Below, one piece after another: positions 4,668 to 20,743 of a stretch of 20,743 bases of DNA. The DNA is from a virus. Location of the stretch: positions 1 through 20,743 of the IMG/VR virus record IMGVR_UViG_3300033388_005192. One strand, given 5' to 3'. The first letter of the stretch is position 1. The number at the start of each line of letters is the position of its first letter. The translations under genes and the position numbers were made by a program. A model generated the notes under the pieces. The model saw only the letters and a list, made by a program, of their open reading frames with translations, did not search any database and was not told where the DNA came from.

Positions 4668-4982
4668 ATGGCTAAGTTTCACGGTAGTATAGGCTTTGTA
4701 CGGACAGAGGAGACTTCGCCAGGCATACACGAAGAAGTTAAGACCGAAAGGCCTTATATTGGGGATCTGATACGAGATATTAAGCAGTTGCGCGAGGGCG
4801 ATCAAGTCAATCCGAACGTAAACGTTAATAATCGTATCAGCATCCTTGCTGACGCGTATGCTGAAGAAAATCTCGCCCATATCCGGTATGTGGTATGGAA
4901 TGGCGCTTCCTGGTCCGTAAGCTCCTTTGAGATTAACCGCCCTCGCATTATATTGTCGATTCGGGGGGTCTATAATGGGTAG
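4668..4982 (+). CDS. head-closure / head-tail connector-like protein
   Basis: 104 residues with AGGAGG at 4657-4662. It begins MAKFHGSIGF and ends RIILSIRGVYNG, a pattern I recognise from a small, widespread phage family found just after the capsid gene (DUF7253-like by memory). Members are short all-beta proteins thought to act in head closure or head-tail joining. Visible features are the N-terminal beta strand with an Arg-Thr-Glu-Glu-Thr-Ser-Pro turn, an NVNNRISILADAYA core near 51-64 and the C-terminal beta segments. Its stop overlaps the next start by 8 bases, so the two are probably translationally coupled. The family match is fairly sure; the exact role in the neck is inferred from gene order. 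Confidence 0.7.
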   Translation: MAKFHGSIGFVRTEETSPGIHEEVKTERPYIGDLIRDIKQLREGDQVNPNVNVNNRISILADAYAEENLAHIRYVVWNGASWSVSSFEINRPRIILSIRGVYNG

Positions 4983-18330: not shown

Positions 18331-18359
18331 TCTCTCGCATTAGAAACATCTGTTATAAT
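18331..18359 (+). promoter_or_regulatory. promoter P1 of the shared ACA-TATAATG family
   Basis: -10 TATAAT at 18354-18359 with upstream TGT (extended -10). ACA at 18346-18348 and TCGC at 18335-18338 match the spacing of the other three promoters. The -10 box is followed directly by the ribosome binding site AAAGGAG (18361-18367), so the start would fall near 18366 and the resulting RNA would have only about 8 bases before the ATG. Confidence 0.6.
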
Positions 18360-18373
18360 GAAAGGAGACAAAA

Positions 18374-18640
18374 ATGGAAAACCGACAAAAGTTGTTTGAT
18401 GCGGAGGTTGACCGTGTACTTGATCTCATGTCCAATATGAAGCCATCCACGGATGACTACAAGAAAACTGTAGAATCACTAAAGACTTTATGCGAGGCGC
18501 GATCCAAAAAAAGCGCGCTGCTCATAGAGCCTGAAACGATTATTACAGCTCTAAGTAGTATCCTCGGGATTGTGCTCATATTGCAACATGAGCGCTTGAA
18601 CGTGGTTACCTCCCGCGCAATTAGTTTTGTGCGGAAATAA
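18374..18640 (+). CDS. conserved small phage membrane protein
   Basis: 88 residues, AAAGGAG at 18361-18367. The N-terminal 45 residues are a charged helix (FDAEVDRVLDLMSNMKPSTDDYKKTVESLKTLCEARSKKSALL), followed by a hydrophobic helix (about 51-70, IITALSSILGIVLILQHE) and a basic end (RAISFVRK). This arrangement is common in small phage proteins close to the holin; I know of no function. It is the last gene before the strong terminator at 18655-18694 and may be read both from the late transcript and from P1. Confidence 0.7.
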   Translation: MENRQKLFDAEVDRVLDLMSNMKPSTDDYKKTVESLKTLCEARSKKSALLIEPETIITALSSILGIVLILQHERLNVVTSRAISFVRK

Positions 18641-18654
18641 TTAGTTGCTCCTCC

Positions 18655-18694
18655 AAAAGAGAAGTTATGTAGAAATACATAGCTTTTCTTTTTT
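18655..18694 (+). terminator. rho-independent terminator T1
   Basis: A 17-bp stem (18655-18671 with 18676-18692), only two of its pairs wobble, capped by a GAAA loop (18672-18675) and ending in a C/T-rich tract (CTTTTCTTTTTT). It lies 15 bases after the 88-residue gene and just before promoter P2, and so separates the structural transcript from the downstream unit. Confidence 0.85.
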
Positions 18695-18695
18695 C

Positions 18696-18724
18696 TTCCT
18701 CGCGTGAAATACAGTCCCTATAAT
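18696..18724 (+). promoter_or_regulatory. promoter P2 of the shared ACA-TATAATG family
   Basis: TATAAT at 18719-18724 with GAAA behind it, ACA at 18711-18713, CTCGC at 18699-18703. CAGT (18712-18715) and ACTG (18728-18731) flank the -10 region. Start expected near 18731, on the first base of the hairpin at 18731-18748. Confidence 0.65.
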
Positions 18725-18730
18725 GAAACT

Positions 18731-18826
18731 GGAATCTTATACGATTCCGACAGAGCCAAATCAGGATCTTTTTTATTTCTTCAAATTTTCCCGGGTGGGA
18801 TTTTTGGACCAACCAAAAGGAGGTGC
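18731..18826 (+). promoter_or_regulatory. structured 5' leader of the small peptide gene
   Basis: Three hairpins follow each other. GGAATC/GATTCC (18731-18748) lies at the expected RNA 5' end, TCCC/GGGA (18789-18800) follows, and TTTTGG/CCAAAA (18802-18818) runs into the ribosome binding site AAAGGAGG (18816-18823). GGATC at 18764-18768, ahead of a T run at 18769-18774, could pair with GATTCC instead of the first arm, giving a weak alternative structure. I see no known riboswitch class. Confidence 0.45.
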
Positions 18827-18913
18827 ATGGTTAAAACGTTCAAAACAGTATGGCGGTATAGGGGTTTTAAGGCTGCCGTAAAGTGGTTGATAAGTGATAT
18901 TCTAAAATCTTGA
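18827..18913 (+). CDS. 28-residue cationic peptide
   Basis: ATG 18827 with AAAGGAGG three bases before it (a short spacing) and TGA at 18911-18913. The peptide MVKTFKTVWRYRGFKAAVKW plus LISDILKS has seven Lys or Arg and one Asp (net about +6) and three hydrophobic patches that can form an amphipathic helix. It is the first gene behind P2. It resembles membrane-active peptides in composition, but I know no homologue; an antiholin-like or membrane-associated role is a guess. Codons downstream in the frame belong to nothing else. A chance open frame is possible, but the ribosome binding site and the next gene's tight fit argue for a real gene. Confidence 0.5.
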   Translation: MVKTFKTVWRYRGFKAAVKWLISDILKS

Positions 18914-18925
18914 AAGGAGAAAAGG

Positions 18926-19240
18926 GTGAAAATCAACGTTAAGCAAAGCAGAAAAGATGACTGGACAATAGCGGCATGGTGTGAAGGTAGTCCTACGAAG
19001 CCATCGGAGAACACGCATGAAATACGCGAATTCTGGTACTGGTCGGCTATTAGGGGGTGGCAGCCACGATATTTCTCAAACAACGCCCTTGCGGTGCGCA
19101 GAGTCTTCGCGCTCATTAAGAGCCGGGGGCTGACGGAACTATTAGGTGTGCCTTCGTTTTTGACTATCCCGCTAGACCAACAAATTGTCGCGATATTACA
19201 GATGATTGAAAAGGAGGGCCATGAATCCGCGAATTCATAG
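18926..19240 (+). CDS. hypothetical protein of the accessory region
   Basis: 104 residues from GTG 18926, with GAAAGGAG seven bases before it. It has no membrane segment. Features are a Lys/Arg-rich start (NVKQSRKDDW), a Trp-rich middle (WYWSAIRGWQPRYFS, residues about 37-51), and an acidic C-terminal part (IEKEGHESANS). I do not recognise a family. It overlaps the next gene by 20 bases and shares its transcript, so the two may act together. Confidence 0.6.
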   Translation: MKINVKQSRKDDWTIAAWCEGSPTKPSENTHEIREFWYWSAIRGWQPRYFSNNALAVRRVFALIKSRGLTELLGVPSFLTIPLDQQIVAILQMIEKEGHESANS

Positions 19241-19997
19241 GCTTCGGGAAGGGGTCGTTCGGGAAGCTCCGACAATTTTGACCGTTTTCGGAGTAACGGG
19301 GCTCGTCACAACGACGATATTTACTATCCGGGGTACAATTGAGGCTGTGGCTATTCTTGCCAAGGAGCGTGAAGCTGCAGAAGAATTGTTCGATGGTGGT
19401 GTCAGAGAATTAGAATTCAAAGAAAAGATGGGAATCACCTGGAAGTGTTATATTCCAACCGCCATTTGTGGTACCTTCACGGCGGCATGCATTTTAGGTG
19501 CGAACAGCATCAACCTCAAACGAAACGCAGCGTTAGCCGGCGTTTACGCAGTTGCTGTAGAGGGCCTTCGTGAGTATCAAGGTAAAGTGATCGAAACCCT
19601 CGGAAAGAAGAAGCACGATAAGATCCTGGAGGGTATATCTGAAGATCGCATTGGTGAAAACCCCCCGGAAGATCGACTCATAGTCGTTGACGGTGGGGGC
19701 GTGTTGTTCTACGATAGCTTCTCCGGACGATATTTCGAGGCCACGATGGAGAGGGTAAAACGAGCAATCAATGACTTCAACTATGAGTTGCTTGACGAGA
19801 TGTGGAAGGAGGTGAATGAGTTCTACGACTTTATAGGCCTTGAGCATATCGAGGCGGGAAGGCGGGTTGGTTGGCGGATCGAGGAGGGAAAATTGGAGGT
19901 GCGCTTTGACGCGAAGATTGTAAATGCCCCGGATTCCAGGTGGCATGATGAACCCTGCATCGTTATGTCATATCCTGCCGAACCGAGATTTCTGTAA
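19221..19997 (+). CDS. DUF6353-like phage membrane protein
   Basis: 258 residues. ATG 19221 is preceded by AAAAGGAGG (19209-19217); an earlier in-frame TTG at 19206 is inside that site and is rejected. A membrane segment (APTILTVFGVTGLVTTTIFTI) lies at about 15-35 and another (CYIPTAICGTFTAACILGANSI) at about 75-95, with a coiled or charged linker between. Residues 100-258 are a soluble domain with GGGVLFYDSFSGRYFEATMERVKRAINDFNYEL and a C-terminal EAGRRVGWRIEEGKLEVRFD. This layout is that of DUF6353-like phage proteins, a family often found in phages of Gram-positive bacteria; its function is unknown. Confidence 0.75.
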   Translation: MNPRIHRLREGVVREAPTILTVFGVTGLVTTTIFTIRGTIEAVAILAKEREAAEELFDGGVRELEFKEKMGITWKCYIPTAICGTFTAACILGANSINLKRNAALAGVYAVAVEGLREYQGKVIETLGKKKHDKILEGISEDRIGENPPEDRLIVVDGGGVLFYDSFSGRYFEATMERVKRAINDFNYELLDEMWKEVNEFYDFIGLEHIEAGRRVGWRIEEGKLEVRFDAKIVNAPDSRWHDEPCIVMSYPAEPRFL

Positions 19998-20025
19998 TAG
20001 AAAAAAGAAAAACATGGTGTATAAT
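19997..20025 (+). promoter_or_regulatory. promoter P3 of the shared ACA-TATAATG family
   Basis: TATAAT at 20020-20025 with GAAA behind it and ACAT at 20012-20015, exactly as in the other three. This one lacks the TCGC block and has an A-rich stretch instead. Start expected near 20032, which leaves a 27-base leader with a normal ribosome binding site for the gene at 20059. Confidence 0.6.
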
Positions 20026-20041
20026 GAAACCCTATTATCTA

Positions 20042-20061
20042 TTTGAAAGGAGAAAACGATG
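20042..20061 (+). repeat. ribosome-binding-site leader repeat, copy 1
   Basis: TTTGAAAGGAGAAAACGATG, identical to 20281-20300. It includes the SD sequence and the ATG of the 58-residue gene. Confidence 0.85.
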
Positions 20062-20235
20062 TTTGAAAACTTGAAGAATAAGGTGAAGGAAAACCCCGTC
20101 CGCGCAAAGCAGATTGGTGTTGCTGTTGGTGCACTCGTTGGAGTGACCGTCATAGCGGCGGCCATCTACTTTTACAGTGATGGGGCAACTCTCCCCCTTA
20201 TTGTTGAAGACACGCTCGAAGCTCTCGCCGAGTAG
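20059..20235 (+). CDS. 58-residue single-span membrane protein
   Basis: ATG 20059 follows GAAAGGAG. The basic amphipathic N-terminus (FENLKNKVKENPVRAKQ) is followed by one membrane helix (about 18-41, GVAVGALVGVTVIAAAIYFYS) and an acidic end (VEDTLEALAE), giving an inside-N-terminus orientation by the positive-inside rule. It has its own promoter (P3) and terminator (T2) and so is a small separate unit. Function unknown. Confidence 0.65.
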   Translation: MFENLKNKVKENPVRAKQIGVAVGALVGVTVIAAAIYFYSDGATLPLIVEDTLEALAE

Positions 20236-20249
20236 TATATTTGGACCTT

Positions 20250-20284
20250 AGGCGTCATTAACATGGCGCCTTTTATTTCTTTTG
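20250..20284 (+). terminator. rho-independent terminator T2
   Basis: A nine-bp stem AGGCGTCAT / ATGGCGCCT (one G-T pair), loop TAAC, followed by TTTATTTCTTTT. It lies 14 bases after the 58-residue gene. The next ribosome binding site starts directly in its T tract. Confidence 0.75.
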
Positions 20285-20300
20285 AAAGGAGAAAACGATG
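20281..20300 (+). repeat. ribosome-binding-site leader repeat, copy 2
   Basis: TTTGAAAGGAGAAAACGATG, identical to 20042-20061. It serves the ATG at 20298. Confidence 0.85.
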
Positions 20301-20492
20301 GATAAGTCTAAAGCCTACAAACTTGGAGTGATTGTTGGAGAGATTATTGTCATTCTCTTCGCTGTGGTGGTATTGTCGTTTATTATCGCCAACTGGCGCT
20401 GGGCCCTGGGGCTTGTGGGTATCATAGTTCTACTGCTTTTTATCATTGAGATGGCGAAACCGAAGAAAGGAGAAGATGATGGCAGCACCTAA
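20298..20492 (+). CDS. 64-residue two-span membrane protein
   Basis: ATG 20298 with GAAAGGAG. Two membrane segments are seen, about 9-31 (LGVIVGEIIVILFAVVVLSFI) and 36-53 (WALGLVGIIVLLLFIIEM), joined by a short turn (ANWR), with a charged end (KPKKGEDDGST). There is no promoter between terminator T2 and this gene, so it depends on readthrough of T2 or on an unseen signal. Its end overlaps the next gene by 14 bases. Function unknown; a small membrane component or superinfection-type protein is possible. Confidence 0.65.
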   Translation: MDKSKAYKLGVIVGEIIVILFAVVVLSFIIANWRWALGLVGIIVLLLFIIEMAKPKKGEDDGST

Positions 20493-20688
20493 GAAACAAA
20501 GCCTGTGGAACCGGGCAAAAGAAAGTATCACCGAGGTCAAAAACACGCAGATAGCCGTTCAAAGTGCGATATTGGTTGGATCGGTTGTATGTTTGGGCGG
20601 TTTCATGGTCCTCACCGCAGTAGCTATTAGCCATACAAATATCAACATAACGGTGGTTGTTGATCCGGGGAGGAAGAACTTCCGTTAA
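20479..20688 (+). CDS. 69-residue small membrane protein
   Basis: Two adjacent ATGs (20476, 20479) follow AAAGGAG at 20466-20472; 20479 has the better spacing (six bases) and is chosen. One membrane helix (about 27-47, ILVGSVVCLGGFMVLTAVAIS) follows a basic N-terminus (KKQSLWNRAKESITEVKN); the end is extended (NINITVVVDPGRKNFR). It is translationally coupled to the 64-residue gene. Function unknown. Confidence 0.6.
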   Translation: MAAPKKQSLWNRAKESITEVKNTQIAVQSAILVGSVVCLGGFMVLTAVAISHTNINITVVVDPGRKNFR

Positions 20689-20713
20689 TCGCAGGGATTA
20701 CATAGGGTATAAT
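20685..20713 (+). promoter_or_regulatory. promoter P4 of the shared ACA-TATAATG family
   Basis: TATAAT at 20708-20713 with GAAC behind it, ACAT at 20700-20703, TCGC at 20689-20692. CATAGGG (20701-20707) and CCCTATG (20726-20732) form a perfect inverted repeat around it. It precedes a gene that starts beyond the window; its ribosome binding site (AAAAGGAG) is at 20733-20740. Confidence 0.6.
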
Positions 20714-20743
20714 GAACCCACTAACCCCTATGAAAAGGAGATA

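Follow-up and report, generated by a model that had tools for sequence, protein, structure and literature searches.

Four spaced signals downstream of a holin gene

The stretch of DNA analysed here, hereafter the window, is a 20.7-kb fragment of the virus record IMGVR_UViG_3300033388_005192 that ends at 20743 and carries genes for a portal protein, a protease-capsid fusion, a tape-measure protein and a holin, followed by a set of small genes. Its nearest named phages are siphoviruses of Arthrobacter, Gordonia, Streptomyces, Rhodococcus and Lactococcus. Directly after the holin gene begins a series of four sites in which ACA, TATAAT and GAA recur at fixed spacing. Comparison with related phages suggests that these four signals are most likely members of a promoter type that recurs in hundreds of phages, all of which encode a single-chain RNA polymerase (RNAP), and we consider it probable that they are promoters of the phage-encoded, single-chain, two-barrel, DNA-dependent RNAP phrog_4291.

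There are exactly four copies of ACA-N5-TATAATGAA in the window, with TATAAT at 18354, 18719, 20020 and 20708, and no further copy; written as ACAN5TATAATGAA, they start at 18346, 18711, 20012 and 20700, all on the plus strand. Third-order Markov nulls of the window held a mean of 0.0033 ACAN5TATAATGAA per sequence (maximum 1) compared with the four observed, and the form that includes TCGC was found in none of 300 such nulls compared with three times in the window. Site 1 (18335..18362, plus strand; 29.1 bits) comprises TCGC at 18335-18338, ACA at 18346-18348, TATAAT at 18354-18359 and GAA at 18360-18362, and a Shine-Dalgarno sequence, AAAGGAG, begins 1 base past its TATAAT. Site 2 (18700..18727, plus strand; 32.8 bits) has TCGC at 18700, ACA at 18711 and TATAAT at 18719-18724. 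Site 3 (20012..20028, plus strand; 18.6 bits) has ACA at 20012, TATAAT at 20020-20025 and GAA, with AAAAAAG in place of TCGC. Site 4 (20689..20716, plus strand; 32.4 bits), whose gene lies beyond the window end, has TCGC at 20689, ACA at 20700 and TATAAT at 20708-20713.

The original prediction, made from the letters of the window, had described these four sites with their ACA, TATAAT and GAA spacing, and had placed TCGC 19 bases 5' of TATAAT in three of them (starts 18335, 18700 and 20689); all of these coordinates are correct, and the arrangement is absent elsewhere in the window. The lack of a TTGACA -35 element that it reported was likewise borne out, as we found no TTGACA-like hexamer at 16-18 bp before the four sites save a weak TAGAAA at site 3. 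TATAATG does occur elsewhere in the window without the surrounding context, at 4971 and 16500 (both plus strand), close to where it had been noted, and also at 4946 (minus strand).

A motif shared across a phage clade

The search in related phages and in randomised sequence that had been proposed with the original prediction returned many matches in relatives and almost none in controls. TCGC-N7-ACA-N5-TATAATGAA gave at least 120 matches in IMG/VR, up to seven of them in one stretch, compared with 10 single matches when one spacer was lengthened by one base. The consensus is TCGCRNRWWWWACA-N5-TATAATGARA, multiple copies of which occupy intergenic positions on the coding strand within the region between the tail and replication genes. 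When we aligned 143 unique sites gathered from IMG/VR loci with the ACAN5TATAATGAA core alone, we found constraint at positions that had not been part of the search, namely R at -15 and -13, W at -12 to -9, and R at +9. A weight-matrix set of 490 sites yielded TCGCRNRWWWWACAnnBnnTATAATGARA, with A nearly excluded three bases before TATAAT; in these 490 sites neither a -35 position nor an extended -10 (TG before TATAAT) was conserved. The conserved element is wider than the one first described.

Scanning 14 named relatives with the weight matrix gave 142 matches, compared with 0.17 on average when 40 column-permuted matrices were used, and the motif or a recognisable lineage variant was present in all 14 (hosts Arthrobacter, Gordonia, Streptomyces, Lactococcus and others). 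Among the variants are those of two Lactococcus lactis phages, CHPC971 (TCACA...ACA...TATAGT) and P118 (TTTTA...ACA...TATAATGA), while Camille and Qui vary chiefly at hexamer positions 4-5. TATAAT by itself is common, and the four sites could on that ground be thought ordinary host promoters that resemble one another by chance, in intergenic DNA that is AT-rich. This explanation is refuted by the controls, and we give it practically no weight: the Markov nulls, the spacer shift, the permuted matrices and a set of 120 loci with consensus sigma-70 promoters (TTGACA-N17-TATAATGAA) together produced almost nothing, the last of these no match at all.

The strict motif was found in 21 stretches, mostly arrays, among 85,000 prokaryote genomes, where by our estimate from base counts about one would be expected. 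As 12 of the 20 genomes with the strict motif also encode the polymerase, and as the matches form arrays, these appear to be prophages or co-binned phage contigs. One such genome is that of Ruminococcus torques ATCC 27756, a cultured gut isolate that contains the polymerase gene as well as the strict motif (our loci L191 and L513), so that a prophage of the clade may sit in a cultivable host.

We also considered whether the motif could act as a hairpin promoter of the N4 type. Pair complementarity within the motif lay within about 5 percentage points of that in column shuffles, and since its halves do not covary this candidate was ruled out. Local palindromes do occur at the sites of a few phages (PherryCruz and BitterVaud1).

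In Tanis and Circum all 22 sites are intergenic, in genomes whose intergenic DNA amounts to 11% and 6%, respectively, and most lie 9-41 bases 5' of a start codon. In the structural-gene part (first 38%) of 13 complete or near-complete relatives, no site reached the scoring threshold used, the partial record contig89 being an exception to this rule by map position. A site recurs in relatives before the genes for a nuclease, an exonuclease and the polymerase, with about 880 bp between it and the polymerase gene. In Rhodococcus phage Poco6 a site stands 8 bases before a tRNA-Ala gene (L405 2687-2775, about 42687-42775 in the phage), which indicates that the promoters serve more than protein genes. 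The original prediction had tentatively assigned the sites to small accessory genes; they are indeed used for small genes, and relatives add to these the tRNA gene and the operon for nuclease, exonuclease and RNAP.

Repeated, intergenic sites in a single orientation are also what has been described for stoperators, to which a phage repressor or terminator-like factor binds in Cluster A actinobacteriophages (PMC13313380). We regard this as a very improbable account of the present sites, whose TATAATGARA core stands directly before ribosome-binding sites, most often at 10-12 bases before the Shine-Dalgarno sequence, and which, like promoters, are often preceded by terminator-like hairpins. The Poco6 site in front of a tRNA gene also speaks against it. 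Moreover, the Cluster A stoperators are 13-14 bp long and are spread genome-wide, whereas the present sites are 29 bp long and do not occur in the structural half.

A phage RNA polymerase as candidate reader

The presence of the motif closely follows that of phrog_4291. Among IMG/VR records of at least 50 kb, the polymerase was encoded in 22 of the 23 that contain the motif and in none of 15 controls; across records of all sizes, many of them fragments, the corresponding counts were 45/68 and 0/31. Loci fetched by the polymerase contained 51 motif sites, all on the polymerase strand, and the same loci reversed contained none. The polymerase gene was also found in all relatives that we examined for it. 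Because the motif crosses host phyla, while two L. lactis phages use different versions of it, its reader must be phage-borne.

phrog_4291 is a single-chain protein of about 900 residues, encoded near the right genome end across the clade, in which LSGADFDGD, the catalytic signature of two-barrel RNAPs (DxDGD active site), is invariant. It contains two domains resembling a helix-turn-helix (HTH) near the N terminus and one at the C terminus. A sequence search of the PDB with the polymerase returned HTH-like and chance matches only, and fold comparison was needed. In an AlphaFold2 model (predicted local distance difference test score 78.7), residues 228-728 match QDE-1 (Z 14.6 over 390 residues, 6.2 Å), and the same core matches Thermus phage RNAPs with Z 12.5 (gp64, P74-26 gp62), compared with a Z of about 9.7 for unrelated entries. 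The RNAP of phi14:2 (PDB 6vr4) gave a weak fold match to the modelled protein (E 4e-3). On the strength of this model, phrog_4291 is a two-barrel RNAP, remotely related to QDE-1 and to the P23-45 and crAss-like enzymes, and by analogy with its phage relatives it would use a DNA template. Public databases name it variously RNA-dependent RNA polymerase, HTH protein, structural protein, tail fiber protein or hypothetical protein (for example, L204 42586-45300 and L428 8083-11172); the designation "RNA-dependent" is probably wrong for the polymerase of this clade.

Comparative evidence leads us to infer that phrog_4291 recognises the sites. Among the proteins conserved in all genomes, HTH domains were found in the RNAP only. 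Our search of the core genes for a universally conserved small DNA-binding protein found none, and a small phage activator was rejected as reader since none of the other early proteins in the core set matches a DNA-binding family. Lactococcus phage P118, the only aligned phage without TCGC in its promoters, has an aberrant second HTH (SPGSVT for ESSVR). Streptomyces phage Bing keeps TCGC despite a changed helix, PDTTVG; we therefore discarded the correlation between helix and TCGC as proof of the reader and retain it as a lead only. Small separate frames in three records resemble the N-terminal HTH region of the RNAP (G015:C1:6284-6520, G010:C1:24234-24413 and G032:C1:27202-27375), and a small frame in L375 resembles the part behind the catalytic motif; products of this kind could be regulators or decoys at these promoters.

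Several observations weigh against assigning the sites to this polymerase. Its gene lies outside the window and was not seen in the phage from which the window derives. The capsid protein is also encoded in 32 of 34 motif-positive records, and of the two without it one (G029) is partial and the other (G070) has one chance-like motif match inside coding sequence and no RNAP. Because motif, polymerase and capsid protein are co-inherited, their association amounts to a single phylogenetic event and, taken alone, does not point to the polymerase in particular. TATAAT is, in addition, an ideal -10 hexamer for sigma-A, and of the 313 sites that combine a strong Shine-Dalgarno sequence with an open frame, 295 have that sequence at least 9 bases away, a distance that fits a sigma-A start too. 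As for carriage of the enzyme in the virion, which is taken up below, the basis is a database product name only.

These points bear on the rival that we take most seriously, in which the sites are host sigma-A promoters aided by a phage activator that binds TCGC and ACA in place of a -35 element. The middle promoters of phage T4 combine a non-canonical element, the MotA box, at about -30 with a sigma-70-like -10. In the present sites the hexamer is a perfect -10, the upstream element falls between -35 and -18, the zone of MotA-like factors, the variation in Camille and Qui is concentrated where sigma-70 -10 elements can vary, and most sites have room for a start 7 bases downstream. However, in 15 of the 313 sites, site 1 of the window included, the Shine-Dalgarno sequence begins 1-3 bases after TATAAT, so that a start at +7 would delete the ribosome-binding site. 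The -35 and extended -10 elements are both wanting, the element differs from that of T4, and no conserved protein like MotA was found among the core genes. The spacing of the elements also stays constant from Lactococcus to Streptomyces despite differing host polymerases. Overall, we judge a sigma-A promoter with an activator to be unlikely. The original prediction had proposed a phage-specific class with a composite element, which our analysis supports, and had named as its reader a regulator or a modified host polymerase, for which a phage single-chain two-barrel RNAP is the likelier candidate.

If phrog_4291 is the reader, its own HTH domains would contact TCGC and ACA, which are separated from one another by about one helical turn, as ACA is from TATAAT. 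The strands would open at TATAAT, and RNA would begin at or just after it on the purines GARA, a position suggested by the 15 sites at which RNA begun 7 bases downstream, as with sigma-70, would lack the Shine-Dalgarno sequence. The small genes between the tail and replication modules would thereby be switched on in early or middle expression, and the conserved site upstream of the nuclease-exonuclease-RNAP operon would drive the synthesis of more polymerase. Enzyme carried in the virion may start early transcription; the polymerase may travel there, given that its homologue in phage 1706, orf75, was deposited as a "structural protein" (EU081845, and so cited in Poco6) and given the analogy with phi14:2 and P23-45. 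Systems with a virion-carried RNAP are represented by P23-45 (gp96), phi14:2 and N4. Taken as a whole, a virion-carried, sigma-independent RNAP that reads TCGC and ACA with its own HTH domains and starts RNA directly behind TATAAT is a plausible scheme that we advance tentatively, somewhat short of even confidence. It would constitute a previously undescribed class. The clade concerned numbers at least 250 sequenced phages, with hosts among Actinobacteria and Firmicutes, and most of its polymerase genes carry the annotation RNA-dependent RNA polymerase, HTH protein or hypothetical.

The promoter of T7 RNAP consists of specific upstream contacts, a TATA melting element that ends next to the start, and a purine-rich initial transcribed sequence. 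The layout of the present motif is analogous, with its start placed by inference, although the two polymerases are unrelated in fold and sequence. Closer in fold is the system of P23-45, a siphovirus with two two-barrel RNAPs, in which a conserved intergenic motif precedes the genes of each, as mapped by transcription start sites and chromatin immunoprecipitation, and whose relatives that lack the virion RNAP also lack its motif (PMC10770324). The RNAP fold is alike (gp64, P74-26 gp62), whereas AT-rich and GC-rich motifs are described for P23-45 and TCGC/ACA/TATAATGARA is known here from sequence alone; the present RNAP has no fusion with the tape-measure protein. In Bacillus phage SPbeta, YonO starts at a single site to transcribe the late genes for structure and lysis, and the sequence of its promoter was described in 2017 as an open question (PMC5467207). 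The enzyme is described as a single-chain phage RNAP, distantly akin to the multisubunit enzymes, that transcribes a phage gene set; YonO serves structural genes, whereas the sites described here avoid them. The virion-carried two-barrel RNAP of crAss-like phage phi14:2 has 2,166 residues compared with about 900 here.

We found no account of the motif or of transcription in these phages in the literature searched, and a prior description in the papers on 1706, ReqiPoco6 or phi14:2 is possible. The sequence comparisons thus place the motif as a candidate promoter class of a phage-encoded RNAP, of a kind that is known, with the motif itself not described in that literature. Very few phages have known promoters for RNAPs of the single-chain two-barrel kind, and the motif provides a precise sequence for a separate lineage. 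Phages of the clade can be grown in the laboratory (on Arthrobacter, Gordonia, Streptomyces and Lactococcus), so that recognition is directly testable in vitro. If the assignment is true, it would supply a transcription programme for a large phage group that has none assigned, explain a conserved gene now named "RNA-dependent RNA polymerase" or "HTH protein", yield a second orthogonal pair of polymerase and promoter alongside that of T7, and represent a sigma-independent arrival at a TATAAT box, which would be of evolutionary interest.

Genes and hairpins around the sites

A relative of the tape-measure protein encoded in the window, 91% identical to it, lies on a 7.4-kb contig, which stops short of the site region. 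Site 1 adjoins an 88-amino-acid gene (18374..18640, plus strand) of phrog_5818, whose function is unassigned; the same family is represented by Circum gp28, which lies directly behind the first motif site of that phage. A terminator-like hairpin follows at 18655..18692 (plus strand; 17 pairs and a T-rich tail, identified by a consensus scan only) and ends 8 bases 5' of site 2. A second such hairpin (20250..20271, plus strand) closes the unit opened by site 3, so that hairpins of this kind end units just before and just after sites.

Immediately 3' of site 2 is a perfect inverted repeat, GGAATC-TTATAC-GATTCC (18731-18748), and because it adjoins the site, the site 2 transcript may open with a stem-loop. 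The sole frame between site 2 and the gene at 18926 encodes 28 amino acids (18827-18913). The gene at 18926 is a 104-amino-acid open reading frame (18926..19240, plus strand) with a GTG start and no assigned function. It is followed by the gene for a phrog_2152 protein, DUF6353 in Circum (19222..19997, plus strand), for which the ATG at 19222 is preceded by a Shine-Dalgarno sequence; the list of open reading frames gives TTG at 19206. DUF6353/phrog_2152 is a core protein of the clade without an assigned function, present in two copies in Circum (gp44 and gp59). Behind site 3 lies a 58-amino-acid open reading frame (20059..20235, plus strand) with a predicted hydrophobic stretch, as judged by eye, and the gene at 20298 comes after the second terminator without a motif of its own.

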